Source: Leucobacter muris
GTDB taxonomy: Bacteria > Actinomycetota > Actinomycetes > Actinomycetales > Microbacteriaceae
DNA length: 64,000 bases
Assembly: GCF_004028235.1 (NCBI RefSeq)
Contig: NZ_CP035037.1
Span: 2,294,001-2,358,000 of the forward strand
Direction: 5' to 3'
Shown here: positions 1 through 13,490 of the stretch, in pieces
Layout: each line of letters begins with the position of its first letter
Position numbering within the stretch: position 1 is the stretch's first letter
Notes under the pieces: model-generated
Databases searched by the model: none
What the model was told of the DNA's origin: nothing
What the model saw: the letters and a program-made list of their open reading frames with translations, nothing else
Translations under genes and position numbers: made by a program

Positions 1-170
1 ATCCGACGCGCGCGTACCTCGCGTTGCGGGAGCAGCGGGAGATCCTGCGGGAGATCTCCGAGATTCAGGGCAATGGCCAGTCGACGAAGGGGGTCACCCT
101 TGAAGACCAGCTTGCTGCTGCCAGGGCAGAGCGGGAGCAGCGAGAAGCTGCTCGGGCTGCAGGAGCCTAG
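1..170 (+). CDS. terminase small subunit, C-terminal part
   Basis: An open frame enters from the left edge and ends at TAG 168-170. It encodes about 55 residues rich in Arg, Glu, Ala and Gln that read as one long charged helix, ending in an AARAAGA tail. This is the usual look of the C-terminus of a small terminase (DNA recognition) in actinobacterial siphoviruses. It overlaps the start of the large terminase in another frame, as small and large terminase genes often do. The N-terminal DNA-binding part is outside the window, so the call rests on position and composition. Confidence 0.5.
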   Translation, partial: PTRAYLALREQREILREISEIQGNGQSTKGVTLEDQLAAARAEREQREAARAAGA

Positions 171-1653
171 CCTCCTCCGCATCCCAGACCGGGCCGGATC
201 CCGGGTGGGCGAGGCCCTCGACCTCGCTGCGGTCGCCGGCTTGCGGGAGGATCCGTGGCAGGAACTCACGCTCGACGCGATTCTCTCGATCGACGCCTCA
301 GATCGGTGGGTGTGCACGGAGTTCGGTGTGCTCGTGAGCCGGCAGAACGGCAAGGGCAACATCATCTTGCCGTTCGAGCTCGCGCACCTGTTCCTGTGGC
401 CGAAGGCTGACGGGGAGCCGAAGACGATCCTGCACTCCGCGCACGAGGTGAAGACCGCCATCGAGGCCTTCCGGCGCCTGAAGCGGGTCATCACCTCGTC
501 ACCACTACTCATGGGCGAGCTGCTGGGCGGTGAGCGTGGCATCAAGGACAACAACCAGTGGCGCGGCTTCGAGCTCGCGAACGGCAACCGGCTCATCTTC
601 ATGGCCAGGTCGCGAAACGCGGGCGTCGGCTTCACCGTCGATGTCCTTGTCGTGGACGAGGCGCAGGAGACCCCGCAGCCCGCTATGGATGCGCTGCTGC
701 CGACCATGTCAGCGGTGGACAACACGCAGGCACTCTTCACCGGCACCGTCCCTGACGAACTGAACAACTCGGAGTACTTCGAAGGAGTGCGCGACCGTGG
801 CCGGGCAGGAACTGACCCGCGCACCGGGTGGGCGGAGTTCAACCCGAAGGGGTCGCACGACCCAGACGTCGCGGCGAAGATCGACATTCGAGATCCTGAG
901 GTGTGGCGGGCCGGGAATCCCGGCCTGGGCTACCGGCCGGGCCTGACTCGGGCGACCATCGAGGATGAGATTTCGCGTCTCGACCCGGAATCGGTGAAGC
1001 GGCTGCGGTTCTCGATCTGGCCGAACCGACGCGAAGAGGAAGCGGAGCAGCTCTCCGAGCTCGACATCGCGGTGTGGAAGCGCGTCGCGGGCGACCACCC
1101 GGTGAAGGGCGACGGGGGCGTGATCGCGATCGCCGTCGGCCGTGGTGGCGGGTACGCGACGATCTCGAAAGCGATCCGCGTCGACGACGAGCACATCGCG
1201 GTCGAGCACCACAAGACCGACCGCAAGGTGCGCTGGGTCGCCGACGACGTGAAAGCACTCAAGGCTGAGCTTGGGAACGCTCTCGTGGTGGTCGACCCGA
1301 AGAACGCGGCGATGATCCTTGCGGATCTCGACCGTGTCGGCGTGAAGTACCTGCCGATGAGCATTGACGAGCTCGCCGCCGCGCACTCGATCTTCATCGA
1401 GATGTCGAACGACGGCCTCGTGCTGCACCGGGATCAGGCCGAGGTGACGAAGTCGCTCGAGCTCGCGACGACTCGAGCGATCGGCCGCGCCGGCTTCACA
1501 TGGGAGCCGTCTGACCCGACGAAGCCGATCTCGCACGCCCAGTCCGTGACTTGGGCGGTGTGGGGCGTGATCAAGTCCGAAGCTTCCCCGAAGCGGGAGC
1601 CTGAATTGGCCTGGTTTGAGTTCCGACCGGTTTTCCTGTCAACCTGTCGGTGA
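73..1653 (+). CDS. phage terminase large subunit, last codons replaced by IS sequence
   Basis: This is the ATP-driven packaging motor and headful/cos nuclease. A Walker A-like RQNGKG lies near residue 92 and a Walker B VVDEAQ near residue 195. The C-terminal half has the nuclease-fold elements VVVDPKN and an H-R-D motif, followed by an Ala/Arg helix. The first nuclease Asp, normally in a DVSPD-like strand, is not obvious: the equivalent stretch reads IAIAVGRGGG. The IS3-flanked unit entered at codon 510, so the frame now ends with 15 IS-encoded residues (LAWFEFRPV...). Without the unit the protein would end REPAVVRGYA and stop at TGA 9604-9606. The protein may still work because only about eight C-terminal residues changed. 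The true start is uncertain: 73 is the first ATG, but a later non-ATG start is possible. Confidence 0.85.
   Translation: MASRRRGSPLKTSLLLPGQSGSSEKLLGLQEPSLLRIPDRAGSRVGEALDLAAVAGLREDPWQELTLDAILSIDASDRWVCTEFGVLVSRQNGKGNIILPFELAHLFLWPKADGEPKTILHSAHEVKTAIEAFRRLKRVITSSPLLMGELLGGERGIKDNNQWRGFELANGNRLIFMARSRNAGVGFTVDVLVVDEAQETPQPAMDALLPTMSAVDNTQALFTGTVPDELNNSEYFEGVRDRGRAGTDPRTGWAEFNPKGSHDPDVAAKIDIRDPEVWRAGNPGLGYRPGLTRATIEDEISRLDPESVKRLRFSIWPNRREEEAEQLSELDIAVWKRVAGDHPVKGDGGVIAIAVGRGGGYATISKAIRVDDEHIAVEHHKTDRKVRWVADDVKALKAELGNALVVVDPKNAAMILADLDRVGVKYLPMSIDELAAAHSIFIEMSNDGLVLHRDQAEVTKSLELATTRAIGRAGFTWEPSDPTKPISHAQSVTWAVWGVIKSEASPKREPELAWFEFRPVFLSTCR
1598..1601. repeat. left copy of the 4-bp target duplication AGCC
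   Basis: AGCC directly precedes the first IS end (TGAATTGG), and the same four bases directly follow the outer end of the second IS at 9578-9581. The inner flanks of the two IS copies (ATTC after 2910, TTAC before 8269) do not match the outer flanks or each other. The pair therefore marks the outside of the whole unit, not of either IS alone. Confidence 0.75.
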
Positions 1654-2550
1654 CAGAAGTTCCTCGGCCTCAGTATAGTAGGCCTGCTCGACCTCGATCG
1701 GGGTACGCATATCGAGCTCCCCGTGAAGGCGCTCATGGTTCCACCACCACACGTATTCGAGGGTCGCGAGTTCGACCTGCTCAACCGTCCGCCAGGGGCC
1801 CTGCTGTCGGATCAGTTCGGTCTTGTAGAGGTTGTTGACCGCCTCAGCCATGGCATTGTCAAAACTGTCGCCGACCGTCCCGGTCGAGGGCACTGCTCCG
1901 AGTTCCGCAATGCGATCCGTATAGACCATGGCGGTGTAATTCGACCCGTGATCGGCGTGATGGATCAGGCCATCGAGCCTGCCGCCCGATTGCCACGCAG
2001 CCATATCGAGTGCCTGCATCGGCAGAACCTCAGATTTCAGCGTCGCAGCGACATTCCAGCCCACGATTCTGCGCGAGTACACGTCAGTGACGAACGCGAC
2101 ATAGGCGAACCCAGACCAGGTGGCGACGTAGGTCACGTCGCACACCCAGAGCTTGCGCGGCCCGTCAGCGGCGAATCTCCGGTTGACGAGATCGGCAGGC
2201 AGTGCCGCCGTTTTGTTAGGGCGTGTGGTGAACACGCGCTTTGATTTCCGTACCCCGCGCACGCCGGCGAGCCGCATCAGACGCTCGGTCTGGTCGCGGC
2301 CGATCTTCCACCCCTCACGCTTCAGCAGGGCATGCATCTTCCGGCGCCCGTACACGCCATAGTGCTTCGCGTGGAGCCGCCGGATCTCAGGGAGGAGCAA
2401 CTCGTCGCGCAGCTGCCTGGCTGAGGCCGACCGGGCTTTCGCGGCCCGGTATCCGCGGGAGGTGAGGAACCCACGAACTGCCGCACGCAGCGTACGACAG
2501 AGGAACTCGACCCCGAAACGATCACGGTACTCGTCGATGAATCTGATCAT
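1639..2550 (-). CDS. IS3-family transposase OrfB (copy A)
   Basis: This 303-residue DDE integrase-type catalytic subunit has an N-terminal HTH_21-like region (YGVYGRRKMHALL) followed by the rve core. The likely acidic triad is the Asp in VCDVTYV, the Asp in HADHGSN and the Glu in MAEAVNNL. The C-terminal WWWNHERLHGELD motif is typical of the family. The start ATG overlaps the orfA stop by ATGA (2547-2550), so OrfB is made by coupling or as an OrfAB fusion by frameshifting. The protein appears complete and active, with no stops or frameshifts. Confidence 0.93.
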   Translation of the reverse strand: MIRFIDEYRDRFGVEFLCRTLRAAVRGFLTSRGYRAAKARSASARQLRDELLLPEIRRLHAKHYGVYGRRKMHALLKREGWKIGRDQTERLMRLAGVRGVRKSKRVFTTRPNKTAALPADLVNRRFAADGPRKLWVCDVTYVATWSGFAYVAFVTDVYSRRIVGWNVAATLKSEVLPMQALDMAAWQSGGRLDGLIHHADHGSNYTAMVYTDRIAELGAVPSTGTVGDSFDNAMAEAVNNLYKTELIRQQGPWRTVEQVELATLEYVWWWNHERLHGELDMRTPIEVEQAYYTEAEELLSPTG

Positions 2551-2861
2551 TTCGTTCGTGGCCGGTCGAGTTCCTTCGCGAAAAACACGCTCGCGGCTTT
2601 GAGTACCTCGTTGGCCTTACGGAGCTCGCTCACCTCGCGGCGTAACCGCCGGTTCTCCTGGGCCATATCGATCGAGGTGCCAGGCTTCGCGCCGGTATCG
2701 ATGTCGTAGCGGCGCTGCCACACGCGCAGCGTCTCCGGGCTCACTCCGAGGAGCCCACCGACGTGTCGGCAGGCCGCGGTCAGCGACTCGTGCTCGGGAC
2801 GGGCTTCGGCGAGCATCCGAAGTGCGCGCTGGCGAAGTTCAGGGTCATATTTGCTTGGCAT
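2547..2861 (-). CDS. IS3-family transposase OrfA (copy A)
   Basis: This 104-residue helix-turn-helix protein (transposase_8 type) has an N-terminal PSKYDPELRQRALRM, an HTH around LLGVSPETLRVWQRR and a C-terminal leucine-zipper-like stretch (NRRLRREVSELRKANEVLK). It binds the IS ends and partners OrfB. The ATG at 2861 is chosen because the upstream in-frame extension is made of IS terminal repeat and cargo DNA. Confidence 0.9.
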   Translation of the reverse strand: MPSKYDPELRQRALRMLAEARPEHESLTAACRHVGGLLGVSPETLRVWQRRYDIDTGAKPGTSIDMAQENRRLRREVSELRKANEVLKAASVFFAKELDRPRTK

Positions 2862-2923
2862 CGTAGTTCCATCCTTGTATAAAGATCGGAACTCAAACCA
2901 GGCCAATTCAATTCTTATTTCCC

Positions 2924-2967
2924 AGGCCCTACCCCCTCCGCTAAGCACGGCAGAGGGGGTGGGGCCT
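2924..2967. terminator. 15-bp stem terminator at the cargo/IS boundary
   Basis: AGGCCCTACCCCCTC pairs with GAGGGGGTGGGGCCT with one T-G wobble. The plus-strand side is followed by TTTCGTTTTT. The stem lies between copy A of the IS and the stop of the large surface-protein gene. It can end that gene's minus-strand transcript and also block transcription leaving the IS on the plus strand. Confidence 0.7.
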
Positions 2968-3016
2968 GTTTCGTTTTTGAAACTCGCCCCCCTCCATCAG
3001 AGGTCCGCCGGTCTTC

Positions 3017-6000
3017 TTAGCTCATAGCTTCCCGAGAGCGACGCCGCTGCATCCACAGCGCGAACGCGACCAGAAGACCAGCACTGCCGGCCCCGAGGAA
3101 TATCGCAAACGTTCCCATCCCACCAGTGAGCGGCAACTGCGGAACATCCGACTGCGTATTCCTGAAAGACTTTTGGAACGCGGTATAACCACGCACGGTG
3201 ATCTCACGCGGGGTGTCATCAAGAACATACCCTGCGGGGGCACGCGTCTGTGTCAGAACATAGTCGCCCGCAGTGAGCCCGGAAATCCTGATTTTTCCTA
3301 GTTCCGGGTTCACGTCAGAACCACTGCAATTAGCACCGGTCTCTGCGACGCAATCCGTGACTTCGACAGCCGCACCGATCGGCTCGCCGTTCTTATCGAC
3401 GCGCACCAACGACCACTCCGAACCGGCGAGATACCTGCCCTCGTCTCCTGAGTTCGATAAATACCACGCGAGCGTCGAGGTCTCTACAATGATGCCCGCG
3501 GGATCGCAGGGCTCATCGACCTCTGTATCAGTAGGAACCGCACACGCGTTATTGACCAGGGTCCCGCCTGCGGCCTCGTCTCCCAGCTTGATCGAGTAGT
3601 CGATCGTGACCGCGTTGTCTTCTCCCGGGAGCAGTTCGGGGATGATCGCCCCAGCTTCGAGGCCGTCCGGCAGCGGGTCCAGTGAGGCGAGAGCGACCCG
3701 GTCATCCGTGATTTGCACATCGGTCAGCGTCTCGTCACCGGTGTTGGTTACGACCAGCCGGTAGGGGACGGTGTCACCCGCGTATCGTGTCGGATAGTCG
3801 TCCACGTTCTGCGCGTCATGCCAGCCGCCGTCGGAATCTTGCACGTACTTCTTGATCGAGATCGAGTTCACAGCCGCGATCTGGAACCAGCTCGAAGTCC
3901 GCATCTTAAGTTGCGTACGCGCTGCACGGGATTCGGCACGATTCACGTAGATGTCTTCGAAAGTGGCACCGGTCGTGGTGATGTCAATCTTGAATTCCTG
4001 AGATGCCGCCGCAGGCAGAGAAGGGCCAATGACTCGCACACCAGTCGCGTCGGGCGTGAACGTCGTCGACCAACCCACCGTGTTCCCCGAAGGATCACCC
4101 GCTGCACCGTTTGTCGGGTCCGCCGGATCGTCGACCAACGTCGCCGGATCCGCCGTTGTGTAATAGACGGTCGAGCCAGAAACTGCAGTCACCGGTCCGG
4201 ACAGCTGATAGGTGCCGGAGAAGCTTGTCCCCCGCCCATCACCGTTGTACGGAAGAACATCGATTGTGTCGGTGAAACTCTGTGCCACAGAATCCGCAGA
4301 GGTGAGGCGCACAGTCCAGCCGTCCTGCGCGGCACCACTCACATGAGGGACCTGCTGGGCGTCTGCCGTTTTCGTGAGGAAAGTGTAACCCCCGTCGCGC
4401 ACTCGCGTCGATGCCGTGTCCTCGTCAGTTGCACCAGCCAACACCGCTTTGACACGGGTACTGAACACTTCTCCTGGATCCGCATTCGAGTCCACCGTCG
4501 CGCTCAGCAGAATCGTGTAATCCGTATTCGTAGAAACGCTACCGATGCTCCACGACAAGATCTGCCCGCTCACTGACGTCGGGGCGACACTCGCGCTGCC
4601 CGGGACGTATGTCAGTCCCGCCGGCAGCACGTCCCTCAGATCGAGATTATCCACCACTATGTCACCCGGCGCTTTAACCCGATACGTGATCGTGAAGTTC
4701 ACCGTCGCACCGGGCATCGTTATTGACTGGTCAACCGTCTTCTTCACTAGCGGGCGGCCCGTCACAATCCGCAGAACATCGCGACCGCTACCCGCGTAGG
4801 CATACCGCGAACCAGGAGTAACGGTGCCCTGCACCGGCACATCACTCGCGTTCGACGTGCGATGGGAGTTAACCCAGGCGTTGGATCCCGTCCGGTAGCT
4901 GGTCCAGGTCCAAATGTCTTGCCCGACAGCAACGTTCGGCTTCACCGTCGAGTACGTACGAAGGTACGCAACAGCGTCACGAATGTTCGCCGAGGCTGGG
5001 AAAGTGGCGCGGACCGCCTTCACCTTCGACAAATCAGACGGAAGCGTCGCCTGCCACTCTGTCCCCGTGGAACCATCGCACTGGAAACTGTTCGGATCGT
5101 AGGCAGAGTTCGAGGGGTTTAGGATCCCCCCAGTGCCCGTCCCCGTGAAGTACTCATATGTAACCCCCGGATACGGGGTCACGACTCCGCCTGAGATCGG
5201 ACCCGCCGCAGAGCTATTGAACGTCACATACTTTGTATCAAGGATCGTGCAGACCTGCGTCCGCGTCTCGCTACCGGAGGGGGGTCGAACACCGGACTGC
5301 GCGAGAACGGGCTGTCCGGCCATGCTGCGGTAAGTGTCCTTCCATAGACGCCCCTGCACGGGGGGAGCCATGTTCCTGAGATCCCATCCTCCGGACCAGG
5401 TTCCGCGAACCGACGCCCGCCTATTCTGATTGTTCGCCGGGTCGTCTGAACTAGTTTCAAGCGCGGTCGACGTGTATGTCGGCGCGGTTGACGTGAAAGA
5501 GATGGCCGTGCCAGCTACATACGTGAACCGCACAGAAATCAAACCGGAAGCGACCACGTCCCACTCAGCTGGCAACGCAACACCATTCGAGTCCGTGGTT
5601 GGGTCAAGCATCTTCGAATAGTCGATCCCGGTCAGCGTCAGACGCATCTGATTCGAACCCAGCTGAACCAACGTACACGTTGCCGGGAATGGCGCGGTCT
5701 GGGCTGCATCAAAACCTTTTCCCGAGTACGGGTGCCCCGGAATCTTATAACCCAGAGTCGTGCAGCCATCGACGGATGGCATGACGGATTCGCCACCGGT
5801 CGCAGTGAACGTGAGGTCGTAACTCACGGTACCGGGACCCGCATTCGAACCCGGAGCGTGCCTGAGAGACCATGGGAACTTAAGAACATTCTGGTCCCCA
5901 TCACGTGAATTCAAGGGATTTCCTCCATCGAATTTCATGTCCATCCGGAACGGGGCCACGATGTCCAGCTCCGGCAGCGAGGTCGACACCTCATTTACGC

Positions 6001-6493
6001 CCAGCTCGCCTACGTTCGCTGAGAGGCCCACTTGAGCACCGGCCACACCTCTCGCCTCGACGCCCGTGAGGAATAGCTCGGCGGTACCGAGATTCCGAGT
6101 GCCGAGATTGCACACGAGCCTGGCCCCATCGCCTTGAATCTCAGACGACGGGTCTACCCCGTCCGTAAGACACTCGAACGGTAACTCAGTAAATACAGCG
6201 TTTTGCGCCGTGAAAGTTACAACCACGTTCTCCTGCGAATGGTTCTCAGGTGCAGGGTCTGCATCATTAACGTTGTAACGCCAGACAGCGGTGAGTTCAG
6301 TACCACGCTGCAGCGGATTCGGAGTACCTGCAGCCCAGCTTCCTTCGAGCCCATAGACGGGGGTGACGGCGTGAGTAGCATCGGTCTTCTGAAGCCCGGC
6401 AAAGCTGACTACTGCGGTGCAGGCCAGTACCGCAGCGCACAGTCTCTTCGCTCTGTGGCGGACATTCATCCGAGTTATGAAGTTATCTTTCAA
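3017..6493 (-). CDS. large LPXTG-anchored surface protein, probable pilus tip or adhesin subunit
   Basis: A 1158-residue secreted cell-wall protein. Residues 1-40 form a signal peptide (basic MNVRHRAKR, then a hydrophobic core). A long beta-rich ectodomain follows, with two DUF11-like conserved repeats near residues 582 and 877. A SpaA/prealbumin-like domain lies near 1023-1105 (LTAGDYVLTQTRAPAGY). The end is an LPLTG sorting signal near residue 1120, a hydrophobic span and an RRR tail. Size, the SpaA domain and the neighbouring shaft pilin suggest the tip or adhesin of a sortase-built pilus; a stand-alone adhesin is also possible. The start is TTG at 6493, whose first two bases overlap the stop of a 13-codon leader ORF with a strong AGGAGG. 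An ATG eight codons further in is the alternative start. No sortase C is present in the cargo. Confidence 0.8.
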   Translation of the reverse strand: MKDNFITRMNVRHRAKRLCAAVLACTAVVSFAGLQKTDATHAVTPVYGLEGSWAAGTPNPLQRGTELTAVWRYNVNDADPAPENHSQENVVVTFTAQNAVFTELPFECLTDGVDPSSEIQGDGARLVCNLGTRNLGTAELFLTGVEARGVAGAQVGLSANVGELGVNEVSTSLPELDIVAPFRMDMKFDGGNPLNSRDGDQNVLKFPWSLRHAPGSNAGPGTVSYDLTFTATGGESVMPSVDGCTTLGYKIPGHPYSGKGFDAAQTAPFPATCTLVQLGSNQMRLTLTGIDYSKMLDPTTDSNGVALPAEWDVVASGLISVRFTYVAGTAISFTSTAPTYTSTALETSSDDPANNQNRRASVRGTWSGGWDLRNMAPPVQGRLWKDTYRSMAGQPVLAQSGVRPPSGSETRTQVCTILDTKYVTFNSSAAGPISGGVVTPYPGVTYEYFTGTGTGGILNPSNSAYDPNSFQCDGSTGTEWQATLPSDLSKVKAVRATFPASANIRDAVAYLRTYSTVKPNVAVGQDIWTWTSYRTGSNAWVNSHRTSNASDVPVQGTVTPGSRYAYAGSGRDVLRIVTGRPLVKKTVDQSITMPGATVNFTITYRVKAPGDIVVDNLDLRDVLPAGLTYVPGSASVAPTSVSGQILSWSIGSVSTNTDYTILLSATVDSNADPGEVFSTRVKAVLAGATDEDTASTRVRDGGYTFLTKTADAQQVPHVSGAAQDGWTVRLTSADSVAQSFTDTIDVLPYNGDGRGTSFSGTYQLSGPVTAVSGSTVYYTTADPATLVDDPADPTNGAAGDPSGNTVGWSTTFTPDATGVRVIGPSLPAAASQEFKIDITTTGATFEDIYVNRAESRAARTQLKMRTSSWFQIAAVNSISIKKYVQDSDGGWHDAQNVDDYPTRYAGDTVPYRLVVTNTGDETLTDVQITDDRVALASLDPLPDGLEAGAIIPELLPGEDNAVTIDYSIKLGDEAAGGTLVNNACAVPTDTEVDEPCDPAGIIVETSTLAWYLSNSGDEGRYLAGSEWSLVRVDKNGEPIGAAVEVTDCVAETGANCSGSDVNPELGKIRISGLTAGDYVLTQTRAPAGYVLDDTPREITVRGYTAFQKSFRNTQSDVPQLPLTGGMGTFAIFLGAGSAGLLVAFALWMQRRRSREAMS

Positions 6494-6531
6494 GGTAATT
6501 CTTTCGAAGCTCGAGAACTATTACTATGCAC
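6490..6531 (-). promoter_or_regulatory. 13-codon leader ORF with strong RBS, coupled to the surface-protein start
   Basis: On the minus strand AGGAGG (complement of about 6536-6541) is followed by a GTG at 6531. This opens a 13-residue frame (VHSNSSRASKELP) that stops at TGA 6492-6490. The TGA overlaps the TTG start of the large surface protein (TTGA). The downstream gene has no comparable RBS of its own, so its translation may depend on reading this leader. No start in frame with the surface protein lies next to the AGGAGG. Confidence 0.4.
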
Positions 6532-6608
6532 GCTTACCTCCTGTAATCCCTAACGGGCGCTTCACGGTGAGGGATGGTTGGGAACTGTCGCCATGCTCCG
6601 GAACTGAA

Positions 6609-6659
6609 GGTGTTGTGGCGTGGACCATGGAGCCTTCGCATGGCCCACACCACAACACC
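6609..6659. terminator. long hairpin between shaft pilin and tip genes
   Basis: GGTGTTGTGG pairs with CCACAACACC, and the stem continues inward through the imperfect CGTGGACCATG/CATGGCCCACA. It starts just 7 bases beyond the shaft pilin stop on the minus strand. It likely works as a terminator or attenuator, giving more shaft than tip transcript. There is no clear T-run on the minus-strand side. Confidence 0.6.
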
Positions 6660-6666
6660 CTGCAAC

Positions 6667-8178
6667 TTAGGCGTCCTGGTTCTGTCGACGTCGGTTCATT
6701 AGTACGAACCCCGCAGCAACAGCCACCGCGGCAACACCAGCTGCGATGAGCATGACCTGACCCGCGGCACCCGTCAGCGGCAGCTCGGGCACACCCTGCT
6801 GCGTGTTCACGATGTCAACATTGTCCGAGACCGTCGTCTCACCAATCTTCACCGTCACCGCAGTGAACGGGTCAGCCGGCAGCACGTAGCCTGCAGGAGC
6901 CGCTACTTCCTTGAGGACATAGCAGCGCTGCTGCGCATCAATGACCGGGTTCACGCTATCGCTCACGAACAGGCCAGGAATCGAGATAATACCAGTCCCC
7001 GCGGAAGTGAACTGCGTCTCACCATTGGCAACAACCGGGTCGCCGGCAGCTTCCGCTGCCGAGCAGTCGGCAGCGTACGGGTCAACAGCGTTGTACACCT
7101 CGAACACCGCACCATTCAGGCGGCCCTCGTTACCCGAGGTGCCAGCGGCACGCTTCTGCACCTCAAGGCTGCCCCAGTGCGTTTCGACCTCATTCGACAG
7201 AACCGGAGGGTTCGTGCTCGGGTCAAAGCCCGGGTTGTTCGGCCGCAGTTCAGCCTCGTTGGTGATCGTACCGTTCCCAAGCGTCGTCACCGTACCCGCG
7301 AACACGACCTGGATTTTCTTCCCAGCCTGAGCGTTCGGGCTCTGATTCAGCCAAGCGAGCCCCGCAGCGGTGAAGTTCATCGTGATCTGCTGACCATCAA
7401 CAGTGAGCGTGTAGTAGCTCGCATCAAGCGGGCTACCGTCCACCGTGACAGTCATATCCGCCGGCGCTACCGGCGTAAGACGACTATCCAGGGTGTCGCG
7501 AATCGCGAACCCGGTCCAATCCTCACCAGTGGTCGGGATCGGAACCGTCACAGGGAACTTCACAACCGACCCGAGACCAGTGTCCTGCTGCTCCTCGATC
7601 GTCTTCTCGATCGTTCCTTCACCGTTCTTCGGGTAGGCGTGCACGTCGTACACCCAGCCGTTCTCGTGCGGCATCGGAATAGTCACGATGAACGGAGACG
7701 CGGAATCGATGATCTGTGCGGGAGCCGACGTCTCGCACACCTGGTACACGCCGATCGGAAGGGCAACGTTCGCTGCACCATTCGCATCAGCAGTCGGCAT
7801 CGCCTGCCCGGCACCAAGCGTGTACCCGGCAGGTGCCGTGCACCCATCACCGGGCGTAAGGTCTCCCAAGGCGTCCCAATTCGCCGGCACAGACAGGTCA
7901 ACTGGCTGCCCATCCTTCAGCAGCGGGTACACCGTGAACACCACACCCTCAACGGGATCCGTGAAATCACCCGCAGCAGGAGCCTCACTAATATCACCGT
8001 CAGAGCCGTTGACCTGATGCAGGTACTTATGCACCGTCAACGAGCCTTCCCGGCCAAAGCCGATGTTACCGTAGTTCTGCGGCGCAGCAAACGCGGCAGA
8101 ACTCGCGCCCACCATGGCCGTCATACCGACAGCCCCGACCATCGCGGCAACGCGCCGCATCGTTTTCCGTTCAGCCAC
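6667..8178 (-). CDS. SpaA-type major (shaft) pilin with LPXTG anchor
   Basis: A 503-residue isopeptide-forming fimbrial subunit. The GTG start at 8178 is chosen for its AAAGGAG spaced 8 bases; the longer upstream frame runs through IS antisense DNA. It has a signal peptide with cleavage near AFA-AP and three Ig-like domains with candidate isopeptide lysines (TVHKYLH, TIEKTIE, LEVQKRA). The pilin motif WVYDVHAYPKN, near residue 179, holds the Lys used for polymerisation. An E-box-like LKEVAAPAGY lies near 425, LPLTG near 467, and a membrane span with an RRR tail ends the protein. Class C sortases link such subunits through the pilin-motif Lys and LPXTG Thr. The gene lies 173 bp upstream of the large surface protein. 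Confidence 0.88.
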   Translation of the reverse strand: MAERKTMRRVAAMVGAVGMTAMVGASSAAFAAPQNYGNIGFGREGSLTVHKYLHQVNGSDGDISEAPAAGDFTDPVEGVVFTVYPLLKDGQPVDLSVPANWDALGDLTPGDGCTAPAGYTLGAGQAMPTADANGAANVALPIGVYQVCETSAPAQIIDSASPFIVTIPMPHENGWVYDVHAYPKNGEGTIEKTIEEQQDTGLGSVVKFPVTVPIPTTGEDWTGFAIRDTLDSRLTPVAPADMTVTVDGSPLDASYYTLTVDGQQITMNFTAAGLAWLNQSPNAQAGKKIQVVFAGTVTTLGNGTITNEAELRPNNPGFDPSTNPPVLSNEVETHWGSLEVQKRAAGTSGNEGRLNGAVFEVYNAVDPYAADCSAAEAAGDPVVANGETQFTSAGTGIISIPGLFVSDSVNPVIDAQQRCYVLKEVAAPAGYVLPADPFTAVTVKIGETTVSDNVDIVNTQQGVPELPLTGAAGQVMLIAAGVAAVAVAAGFVLMNRRRQNQDA

Positions 8179-8305
8179 CCGAACGTCTCCTTTCGTAGCC
8201 GCAGGAGACCCAAAGCCCCTGACGCCATAACACGCCACCAACCGAACTACAGCGTTCATAAATATTACTGAATTGGCCTGGTTTGAGTTCCGACCGGTTT
8301 TCCTG

Positions 8306-9217
8306 TCAACCTGTCGGTGACAGAAGTTCCTCGGCCTCAGTATAGTAGGCCTGCTCGACCTCGATCGGGGTACGCATATCGAGCTCCCCGTGAAGGCGCT
8401 CATGGTTCCACCACCACACGTATTCGAGGGTCGCGAGTTCGACCTGCTCAACCGTCCGCCAGGGGCCCTGCTGTCGGATCAGTTCGGTCTTGTAGAGGTT
8501 GTTGACCGCCTCAGCCATGGCATTGTCAAAACTGTCGCCGACCGTCCCGGTCGAGGGCACTGCTCCGAGTTCCGCAATGCGATCCGTATAGACCATGGCG
8601 GTGTAATTCGACCCGTGATCGGCGTGATGGATCAGGCCATCGAGCCTGCCGCCCGATTGCCACGCAGCCATATCGAGTGCCTGCATCGGCAGAACCTCAG
8701 ATTTCAGCGTCGCAGCGACATTCCAGCCCACGATTCTGCGCGAGTACACGTCAGTGACGAACGCGACATAGGCGAACCCAGACCAGGTGGCGACGTAGGT
8801 CACGTCGCACACCCAGAGCTTGCGCGGCCCGTCAGCGGCGAATCTCCGGTTGACGAGATCGGCAGGCAGTGCCGCCGTTTTGTTAGGGCGTGTGGTGAAC
8901 ACGCGCTTTGATTTCCGTACCCCGCGCACGCCGGCGAGCCGCATCAGACGCTCGGTCTGGTCGCGGCCGATCTTCCACCCCTCACGCTTCAGCAGGGCAT
9001 GCATCTTCCGGCGCCCGTACACGCCATAGTGCTTCGCGTGGAGCCGCCGGATCTCAGGGAGGAGCAACTCGTCGCGCAGCTGCCTGGCTGAGGCCGACCG
9101 GGCTTTCGCGGCCCGGTATCCGCGGGAGGTGAGGAACCCACGAACTGCCGCACGCAGCGTACGACAGAGGAACTCGACCCCGAAACGATCACGGTACTCG
9201 TCGATGAATCTGATCAT
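8306..9217 (-). CDS. IS3-family transposase OrfB (copy B)
   Basis: This 303-residue DDE transposase matches copy A residue for residue in translation. It contains the same VCDVTYV, HADHGSN and AEAVNNL acidic motifs and the WWWNHERLHGELD tail. It overlaps orfA by ATGA at 9214-9217. Identity of the two copies suggests recent assembly of the unit or gene conversion between the copies. Confidence 0.93.
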   Translation of the reverse strand: MIRFIDEYRDRFGVEFLCRTLRAAVRGFLTSRGYRAAKARSASARQLRDELLLPEIRRLHAKHYGVYGRRKMHALLKREGWKIGRDQTERLMRLAGVRGVRKSKRVFTTRPNKTAALPADLVNRRFAADGPRKLWVCDVTYVATWSGFAYVAFVTDVYSRRIVGWNVAATLKSEVLPMQALDMAAWQSGGRLDGLIHHADHGSNYTAMVYTDRIAELGAVPSTGTVGDSFDNAMAEAVNNLYKTELIRQQGPWRTVEQVELATLEYVWWWNHERLHGELDMRTPIEVEQAYYTEAEELLSPTG

Positions 9218-9528
9218 TTCGTTCGTGGCCGGTCGAGTTCCTTCGCGAAAAACACGCTCGCGGCTTTGAGTACCTCGTTGGCCTTACGGAGCTCGCTCAC
9301 CTCGCGGCGTAACCGCCGGTTCTCCTGGGCCATATCGATCGAGGTGCCAGGCTTCGCGCCGGTATCGATGTCGTAGCGGCGCTGCCACACGCGCAGCGTC
9401 TCCGGGCTCACTCCGAGGAGCCCACCGACGTGTCGGCAGGCCGCGGTCAGCGACTCGTGCTCGGGACGGGCTTCGGCGAGCATCCGAAGTGCGCGCTGGC
9501 GAAGTTCAGGGTCATATTTGCTTGGCAT
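9214..9528 (-). CDS. IS3-family transposase OrfA (copy B)
   Basis: This 104-residue HTH/leucine-zipper partner of OrfB is the same as copy A, starting at ATG 9528. The frame is open further upstream only because it reads through the IS end into the phage portal region. Confidence 0.9.
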   Translation of the reverse strand: MPSKYDPELRQRALRMLAEARPEHESLTAACRHVGGLLGVSPETLRVWQRRYDIDTGAKPGTSIDMAQENRRLRREVSELRKANEVLKAASVFFAKELDRPRTK

Positions 9529-9577
9529 CGTAGTTCCATCCTTGTATAAAGATCGGAACTCAAACCAGGCCAATTCA

Positions 9578-9581
9578 AGCC
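9578..9581. repeat. right copy of the 4-bp target duplication AGCC
   Basis: AGCC follows the outer end of IS copy B and repeats 1598-1601. Deleting 1602-9581 joins the terminase reading frame to GCAGTGGTG... and its own stop TGA at 9604-9606, which overlaps the portal ATG at 9606. Confidence 0.75.
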
Positions 9582-9605: not shown

Positions 9606-10916
9606 ATGCTCGATGAGACTGAGCTCGGTGAGCGTTGCGCCGCGGTGATGAAGGATGCACGCCAGGAGTGGATGCGCCTTCGAAACCTGCAGCGGCACAT
9701 CGACGGGAAGGTGCTCAGGACGTGGATGCCGGACGGCGCGGACGCGGAGTACAAGGATCTGCTGGACAAGTCAGGCGGTCCGTGGCTTGGGTTCTCGCGC
9801 GACGCGATCGCGCAGGGCTGCCGAATCAACGGCTACGCGAACGAGGACATCTGGAATCGCGTGTGGCGGGCCAACGGGATGGATGGCCGGCAGGGCGTGT
9901 CCACGAAGGAAGCGGTGGGGCTCGGCAAGAGCTTCCTGATGCTGCTGCCCGCTGATGGTGATCAGGGTGTCGTGATGCGCCCGATGTCGGCGCACAACAC
10001 CTTCGCCGTGTACGCAGACCCGTGGGACGATTTCCCCGAGTTCGTGCTCTACCGCGTGGGTGCTACGAAGCAGGGTCCGACGTTCTGGAACTCGCAGTGG
10101 TATGCCTTCGACAGCGAAGGCAGCTACCGGTTCGACGGGTCGCCGTCGACGCCGCAGAATCTCCGCCCTACCCCGCATGGTCTCGACTTCGCACCAGTGG
10201 TTCGGATCTCGAACTCGCTCGCGTCGGAGGGCGAACCGCAGTCGAGCGTGGAGCCGGGGATCCCGATCTACAAGCGCATCGTCGACGCGACCTTCGCGCT
10301 GCAGATGATCCAGAGATACGGCGCGTTCCCTCAGAAGTGGGGTGCCGGTGGGACGCTCGGCGAAGTGCGGGTCGCGATCGACTCTCTGATCCACGCTCCT
10401 GGTGAGGCCGGTGAGACGGTCCGGTTCGGCACGTTCGAGGCGGCAGACCCTACGAAGATGGTCGCCGCGCTCGAAGCGCATGTGAAGCATCTCGCGGCTG
10501 TGCTGCAGGTGCCTCCGCACTACCTGCTGGGCGCCGTGGTGAACATGAGCGCTGAGGGCATCGCGGCTGCGGAGTCGGGCTATCACCGGAACATCGGTGA
10601 CCGGCGCGACGCGCTCGGCGAAGGGTACGAGCTCGCGCTGCGAACCGGGGCACGGATTCTTGGCGAGTCGGCTGCGGCGAGCGCTCTGACCGATCAGGTG
10701 TCCTGGGCGAATGTGCAGTCGTGGTCGCTGGCGCAGGTGTCGGATGCGATCTCGAAGCTCGACGTCGTCGGCGCAGATCTGGGGCGGCTGTTCCAGATGC
10801 TGCCGGGTTGGTCGAGGCAGGACGCTCTTGAGTCCGCCGGGAGCGCCAAGGACAAGAAGATGCTCAGGATTGCGGCATCCTCGTCCAGCCAGCCAGCCAG
10901 CCAGGCGCTGAGCTGA
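9606..10916 (+). CDS. phage portal protein (SPP1 Gp6-like), frame broken near C-terminus
   Basis: This subunit forms the dodecameric ring at the capsid vertex through which DNA enters, and docks terminase and connector. The 436-residue reading has the family pattern: an N-terminal helical region, PLSAHNTFAVYAD-like wing strands, and the late segment VPPHYLLGAVVNMSAEGIAAAESGY that is characteristic of Gp6-like portals. It originally overlapped the terminase stop (TGATG). The frame ends at 10916 just after a (CCAG)5 tract. A further 50 codons with a typical portal C-terminus continue in the -1 frame to 11059, so the protein as read is short by its C-terminal tail. No MuF-type head morphogenesis gene follows. 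Confidence 0.9.
   Translation: MLDETELGERCAAVMKDARQEWMRLRNLQRHIDGKVLRTWMPDGADAEYKDLLDKSGGPWLGFSRDAIAQGCRINGYANEDIWNRVWRANGMDGRQGVSTKEAVGLGKSFLMLLPADGDQGVVMRPMSAHNTFAVYADPWDDFPEFVLYRVGATKQGPTFWNSQWYAFDSEGSYRFDGSPSTPQNLRPTPHGLDFAPVVRISNSLASEGEPQSSVEPGIPIYKRIVDATFALQMIQRYGAFPQKWGAGGTLGEVRVAIDSLIHAPGEAGETVRFGTFEAADPTKMVAALEAHVKHLAAVLQVPPHYLLGAVVNMSAEGIAAAESGYHRNIGDRRDALGEGYELALRTGARILGESAAASALTDQVSWANVQSWSLAQVSDAISKLDVVGADLGRLFQMLPGWSRQDALESAGSAKDKKMLRIAASSSSQPASQALS
10885..10904 (+). repeat. (CCAG)5 tetranucleotide tract in the portal gene
   Basis: Five tandem CCAG units lie six codons before the portal stop. Changing the copy number by +1 or -2 units would join the portal frame to the downstream AELSGATKDQADALG... 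frame. Such tracts slip during replication, so the portal C-terminus could be switchable. A fixed mutation or an assembly error is equally possible. Confidence 0.7.
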
Positions 10917-13073: not shown

Positions 13074-13490
13074 ATGGACCTCACAAGAGCGAAGCTGGAC
13101 CCGTTCCTCCCGACGCTCTCCACCGCCCAGTCCACGAAGGTGAACGCGTGGATCACCGTTCTCGGGCCACTGCTCAACCAGAGGTACGGGGAAGCGATCA
13201 CGACAGATCTGGAGCCGGTGTTCGTGTCGGCGGCAGCAGATGCGGTCATTCGGCGCCTTGAACGTCCCCGTTCGGGGGCGCTGCGAGAGCGTGTCGGACC
13301 CGCATCTATCGACCGTGATGCGCGCTTCCTGCTCGCAGCGTGGTTCCTGCCTGAGGAGCTCGCGCAGCTCGATGACCTCGTAGGCACAGGTGCGGGTGTG
13401 ATCCGTTCGCACCGCACGCCCGCGCCGGACGAGCAACGCTTCGGCAATCGCTACCGCCCGGAGGTGCCCGATGAGCTTCCCAACTGGTGA
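13074..13490 (+). CDS. head-tail connector/adaptor protein
   Basis: This 138-residue, mainly helical protein sits at the position of the Gp6/Gp15-type adaptor that docks under the portal in siphoviruses. It has the helical WITVLGPLLNQRYGEAITTDLEPVFVSAAADAVIRRL core and a C-terminal YRPEVPDELPNW tail typical of connectors. GGAGGGG precedes the ATG by 8 bases. The last 20 bases overlap the next gene. Confidence 0.72.
   Translation: MDLTRAKLDPFLPTLSTAQSTKVNAWITVLGPLLNQRYGEAITTDLEPVFVSAAADAVIRRLERPRSGALRERVGPASIDRDARFLLAAWFLPEELAQLDDLVGTGAGVIRSHRTPAPDEQRFGNRYRPEVPDELPNW

Follow-up and report, generated by a model that had tools for sequence, protein, structure and literature searches.

Introduction

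Pilus and surface-protein genes carried between copies of an insertion sequence (IS) are considered here for a 64,000-nucleotide stretch of the Leucobacter muris genome (assembly GCF_004028235.1, contig NZ_CP035037.1; hereafter the window), in which a pilin gene and a large adhesin gene lie between two IS3-family copies in the terminase gene of a prophage. Elements of the IS3 family produce a short target duplication of 3-5 bp. The pneumococcal rlrA pilus islet, one of the closest described systems, carries its own sortases. According to the available part of its account, the rlrA islet is flanked by IS1167, and its loss by recombination between the IS copies has been proposed (PMC2270847). 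The IS2-like 'megacircle' of Burkholderia thailandensis is, in the portion of the report at hand, described as a cargo including surface-protein genes flanked by IS3-family copies; a circle of one IS and the cargo was shown experimentally, and it can join the chromosome beside a pre-existing IS, also in tandem (PMC6350997).

The window corresponds to positions 2294001-2358000 of a single-contig genome of 3,211,982 bp (G000:C1), and this genome holds three identical 6,667-bp units of IS plus cargo, one in the window prophage (P1) and two in tandem in a second prophage (P2). We consider it rather probable that this IS3-bounded mobile unit, located in prophages of tailed phages, carries the substrate half (major pilin and tip-like adhesin) of a pilus operon of the class C sortase type, a judgement which includes the scheme of spread and of sortase action in trans given below.

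The IS-bounded unit and its insertion site

The two IS copies, IS-L (1602..2910) and IS-R (8269..9577) in window coordinates, are both on the reverse strand and flank non-IS cargo. The initial annotation had described them as 1309-bp IS3 copies in direct orientation, and the base-by-base comparison bears this out; both are complete and identical over 1,309 bp. IS-L has 25-bp terminal inverted repeats, with orfA at 2547-2861 and orfB at 1639-2550, and the transposase genes of IS-R read towards the pilin. The orfB product matches NCBIfam NF033516 with 268 bits (cut-off 160) and carries the rve integrase core, and orfA by itself scores 36 bits.

The cargo of 5358 bp (2911..8268), identical in the three units of the genome, contains two open frames on the reverse strand. 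A shaft-type pilin and a large LPXTG adhesin had been predicted between the IS copies, and both were recognized. The major pilin (6667..8178) is of the SpaH/EbpB type, as evident from a score of 367 bits against NCBIfam NF033902 (cut-off 95), and has a YPK motif, an E-box-like motif and LPLTG. The second product (3017..6493), an LPLTG adhesin of 1158 amino acids, shows the Pfam domains DUF11, DUF7507 and SpaA and an E-box-like motif, with no YPK motif, and may be a tip-like protein. YPK and E-box motifs play a role in pilin polymerisation. Both genes are antisense to the phage late genes and lie between terminase and portal.

The P2 array has the order IS-cargo-IS-cargo-IS (2804858-2819500), with an exact period of 6,667 bp and a single IS between the copies. 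Its flanks are those of P1, which places it at the same terminase site, so that one target site accounts for all three units. The assumption of the window unit as the sole genome copy was rejected, owing to the two further identical units at P2.

The open reading frame 5' of the insert encodes the terminase large subunit (73..1653, forward strand; phrog_9, 2.6e-49) and that on the 3' side the phage portal protein (9606..10916, forward strand; phrog_104, 8.5e-65), as judged from PHROG matches. AGCC is present on both outer sides of the IS pair (1598..1601 and 9578..9581), and the inner flanks, ATTC and TTAC, do not match. A 4-bp flank match has a chance of about 0.006 at the local composition. 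The terminase query matched 18 out of 54 genomes of the genus (its own included), and besides its own, five did so at 83-99% identity; six loci from these five genomes were used for the comparison of the junction. Two of them, G402 (terminase 99% identical) and G418 (93%), are alignable on both sides and represent natural empty sites, with an intact terminase-portal junction, a single AGCC and no pilin. In the remaining four the right flank is unaligned and uninformative on the site, locus L083 reaching its contig end there. As the two natural empty sites have one AGCC each, a match of the flanks by chance is very unlikely. The duplication and the unmatched inner flanks of the initial annotation are thereby upheld, and neither readable junction has pilin genes in the same phage context or AGCC in duplicate.

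The proposed insertion into the terminase is correct as to the gene, but only the last seven codons are affected, and the genome has two more units identical to this one. At both empty sites the terminase has the C-terminus ...KREPAVVRGYA, with a stop codon that overlaps the start of the portal gene; in the window, the C-terminal seven residues (AVVRGYA of the relatives) are replaced by 16 residues encoded by the IS end. The C-terminal end of terminase is not a conserved part of the protein, since past ...WGVIKSEAS the tails differ among four more distant viral relatives. The destruction of terminase domains by the insert was considered and rejected, the site being seven codons before the stop, where the tails are variable in these four relatives.

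With regard to the first entry, the chances are about even that a lone IS occupied the AGCC site and was later joined by a circle of one IS and the cargo. A slightly less probable course is that of a classical composite transposon, the entire element of 7,976 bp having moved into the terminase gene by means of the outer ends of its IS copies. A single event suffices for it, and it is favoured by the two identical direct IS copies, their open transposase frames, the outer 4-bp duplication and the unmatched inner flanks; however, no second target site occurs among the three units, homologous recombination is enough to explain the extra copies, and 15 full IS copies outside the units indicate that the IS also moves alone. 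The composite unit of the initial annotation thus stands insofar as an IS-bounded pilin/adhesin unit entered the terminase gene with a duplication, and for movement of the whole composite one target site is all that is seen.

Full copies of this IS number at least 20 in the genome, and one further copy is split; the count is a lower bound, as 40 of 112 candidates were scored. A target duplication of 3 bp accompanies three of the 15 full copies outside the units (loci L006-L020), and one of 4 bp accompanies the unit. The other 12 full copies outside the units have no 3-bp target duplication, which suggests frequent IS-mediated rearrangement. One of the 15 copies (L011, G000:C1:548393) lies between GGTTCGAAT and AATCC, a context resembling the T-arm of a transfer RNA (tRNA) gene.

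Sortases and the origin of the pilin genes

Three sortase matches were obtained in the genome, namely a class C sortase at 240 kb, a class C sortase at 1,710 kb adjoining its own pilin, and a class E sortase at 20 kb. The unit itself has no sortase, and none of the three matches lies less than 400 kb from any unit, even with the contig taken as circular. The orphan sortase at 240 kb (G000:C1:239730-240695) scores 245 bits as class C (cut-off 160) and is 2.05 Mb in contig coordinates from the window unit; the SpaA-domain match nearest to it is about 68 kb off.

The loci of related pilins provide a link between this sortase and the cargo. The family search covered 398 genomes drawn from a larger group. 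Among the relatives, the 15 pilin loci with strong matches were examined for a sortase, and in 14 of these a relative of the 240-kb sortase is located within 3.5 kb of the pilin. The closest pilin, with 89.5% identity, is that of Leucobacter massiliensis (L074), and the sortase beside it is 88.8% identical to the 240-kb sortase. Sortase and pilin identities are correlated across 13 loci (Spearman 0.66, p 0.013). On this comparison of sequences, the 240-kb class C sortase would be the former operon partner of the cargo pilin and is likely to be its partner now.

A copy of the IS begins 19 bp past the stop of the 240-kb sortase. This IS3 copy is itself interrupted by an element of the IS256 family (L036:12716-15417). 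Two more pilin-like genes (L039:5027-6640 and L040:8972-10312) have no sortase match nearby, and an IS3 copy is present about 2 kb from the second.

Elsewhere in the genome, a 166-bp match to the adhesin, 98.8% identical, occurs at 1,398 kb between IS256 and IS3 copies and is most simply explained as a relic of another copy. This debris speaks for the view that the unit is dead weight, i.e. that the pilin is left unpolymerised for want of a local sortase and that its copies are the debris of IS activity, as does the lack of target duplications at 12 of the 15 outside IS copies. Such an outcome is unlikely, though not strikingly so; the unit does lack a sortase, but both genes are open, the pilin retains its YPK motif, E-box-like motif and LPLTG, and two class C sortases are still present in the genome.

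Probable exchange of the unit between two prophages

P1 and P2 share a tract without base substitutions from 508 to 28363 of the window, interrupted by two indels of 1 bp and by the one extra unit of P2. In contig coordinates, 19 substitutions are found in 2293777-2294507, none from there to 2322363, and divergence again beyond. A block identical inside and diverged at its edges points to recent recombination between the two related prophages, and the location of the unit inside this block implies that it was carried along or arrived with the block. Spread of the unit between the prophages by phage-phage recombination, and not by a second transposition, is therefore most likely. The duplication of the unit as an artefact of assembly, with one prophage or unit counted repeatedly, is very improbable, for although the units show no difference at all and the tract common to both prophages extends over 28 kb, the genome is a single 3.2-Mb contig in which the outer flanks of P1 and P2 differ and base differences occur at both edges of the tract.

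P2 has the usual marks of a complete prophage, with an integrase-like gene, attachment repeats, and genes for head and tail, the latter identified in the P1 scan and shared by the two prophages. Its integrase-like gene (2786700-2787842) is tyrosine-recombinase-like, with matches below the curated cut-offs, and a 23-base core repeated at 2786558-2786580 and 2839107-2839129 is located at the 3' terminus of a tRNA-Ser gene. It measures about 52.6 kb, or 38.0 kb without the insert, and relative to the latter form one unit adds 21% and two units add 39% of DNA. The shared region of P1 is bounded on the left by an IS256-family copy. No counterpart of the P2 left arm was found at P1 within 2240-2340 kb, a scan of the left side of P1 for other integrases not having been made, and no exact repeat of 14 or more bases, as expected for a left attachment site of P1, occurs between 2322886-2323319 and 2260000-2293759.

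Several further observations concern these prophages. A small frame of 138 amino acids in the head region of P1 (window 13074-13490) is truncated in its P2 counterpart, where 1 bp either differs or was misread in sequencing. The IMG/VR record IMGVR_UViG_2841129318_000005 (L159) matches the left part of P2 with 100% identity over the 6,676 bases fetched and stops inside the first IS, a case which shows that prophage calls can be cut at such an IS-bounded unit. On the contig of the G418 prophage, a sortase match and a weak match to the pilin over 72 bp occur at G418:C7:32986-34970, about 6 kb past the last matched prophage stretch and beyond a tRNA-Arg gene, i.e. outside the matched prophage.

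The prophage had been proposed as a vehicle for the pilin genes. Within the genome this agrees with the data, as P1 and P2 share the unit together with the surrounding phage DNA; as a vehicle between cells, the prophage is disfavoured by its enlarged genome, by a cargo that separates terminase from portal and is antisense to them, and by the P2 left arm with no P1 counterpart. Lysogenic conversion, in which the unit was brought in by a phage from a different cell and is passed on among hosts, is accordingly improbable. It agrees with the occurrence of one site in two prophages, with the tyrosine-recombinase-like integrase of P2 and the 23-bp repeat at tRNA-Ser, and with the lack of a donor scar among the IS copies listed, but a P2 of 52.6 kb as against 38.0 kb, the unmatched left arm, the head-region frame cut in P2 and the adhesin match at 1.398 Mb, which suggests an older local copy, speak against it. 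In addition, no close relative of the pilin was confirmed in a scan of viral contigs limited to close relatives, and 50,697 phage records gave only two weak matches; five relatives are carried on plasmids, the best being that of Arthrobacter alpinus (65%). It appears from the sizes given above that the prophages would be poorly able to package the unit, and that the capsid may be unable to take the added DNA.

Proposed mechanism

In the scheme preferred here, the unit would have entered the AGCC site of the terminase gene once, after which homologous recombination in the phage structural genes would have given the other prophage its copy. The extra tandem copy of P2 could have arisen by recombination at the IS, either through unequal crossing-over or through a circle of one IS and cargo joining the resident IS, and further gains and losses of copies may follow when IS copies, or the prophages, recombine with each other. 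In the lysogen, with the late phage genes silent, transcription of the pilin gene would start on the IS-R side, and its product would be polymerised by the orphan class C sortase at 240 kb, acting in trans.

Five observations weigh against this scheme. The promoter scan gave two sigma-70-like sites, where 2.2 would be expected by chance, and none facing the pilin. At one related locus out of 15 (G416, with a truncated pilin), the 19 kb fetched contain no such sortase. The IS copy adjoining the 240-kb sortase, when tried as the old operon junction, was rejected, its orientation being opposite to that expected and its flank being GGTC as against the cargo end GTAA. The three units and the 28-kb tract are known from one assembly. 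Finally, the flanks of the IS copies listed, 20 of them full and one split, were checked by eye and gave no donor scar; the inner flanks of the unit apart, ATT or ATTC is absent from the end of every left flank of these copies, and TAC or TTAC from the start of every right flank. On the right of the split copy ATTC does occur, but it is the interior of an IS256-family copy.

A further-reaching proposal, which is put forward only tentatively and is itself rather unlikely, is that a pilus operon has been dismantled by IS, with the chromosomal sortase acting in trans and the shaft and tip genes placed in an amplifiable IS-bounded unit in the two prophages. The prophages would then serve as a homology platform for pilin dosage, and not as packaged vehicles, and phage-phage recombination would set the dose.

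Comparison with known systems

The unit resembles the B. thailandensis element, as far as the available part of that account goes, in its IS3-family-bounded surface-protein cargo and its tandem arrangement. The latter differs in a cargo of about 210 kb (5.4 kb here), in duplications of 5 bp, and in being reported as chromosomal and not in a prophage. In the rlrA islet, too, IS copies bound pilus genes; one flanking IS1167 is, however, degraded, and the portion of the account at hand includes no prophage site or tandem copies. The tandem amplification of IS plus cargo is also like that of IS26 translocatable units, as partly described, but these belong to the IS6 family and have, in the papers listed, a resistance cargo. 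The transposase of IS26 is of a different kind from that of IS3.

Sortase pilus islets have their own class C sortase in the locus, whereas the present unit is without one. The srtC-pilin-adhesin operon of L. massiliensis has the same pilin (89.5%) followed by an adhesin (55.9%), and differs in its adjacent sortase gene and in a genome with no match to this IS. As the pilin substrates are here separated from the assembling enzyme, sortase action in trans becomes directly testable. The locus also outlines a concrete route for surface-adhesin genes, which may become detached from their operon, multiply, and pass from prophage to prophage within a single cell.

In searches of the open-licence literature, no earlier description of a prophage terminase gene carrying a pilin unit was found. 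IS-bounded pilus genes, and an IS3-family unit joining an existing IS copy, are already known; as far as these searches reach, the prophage site, the sharing of the unit between two prophages via phage homology, and its separation from the sortase are new.

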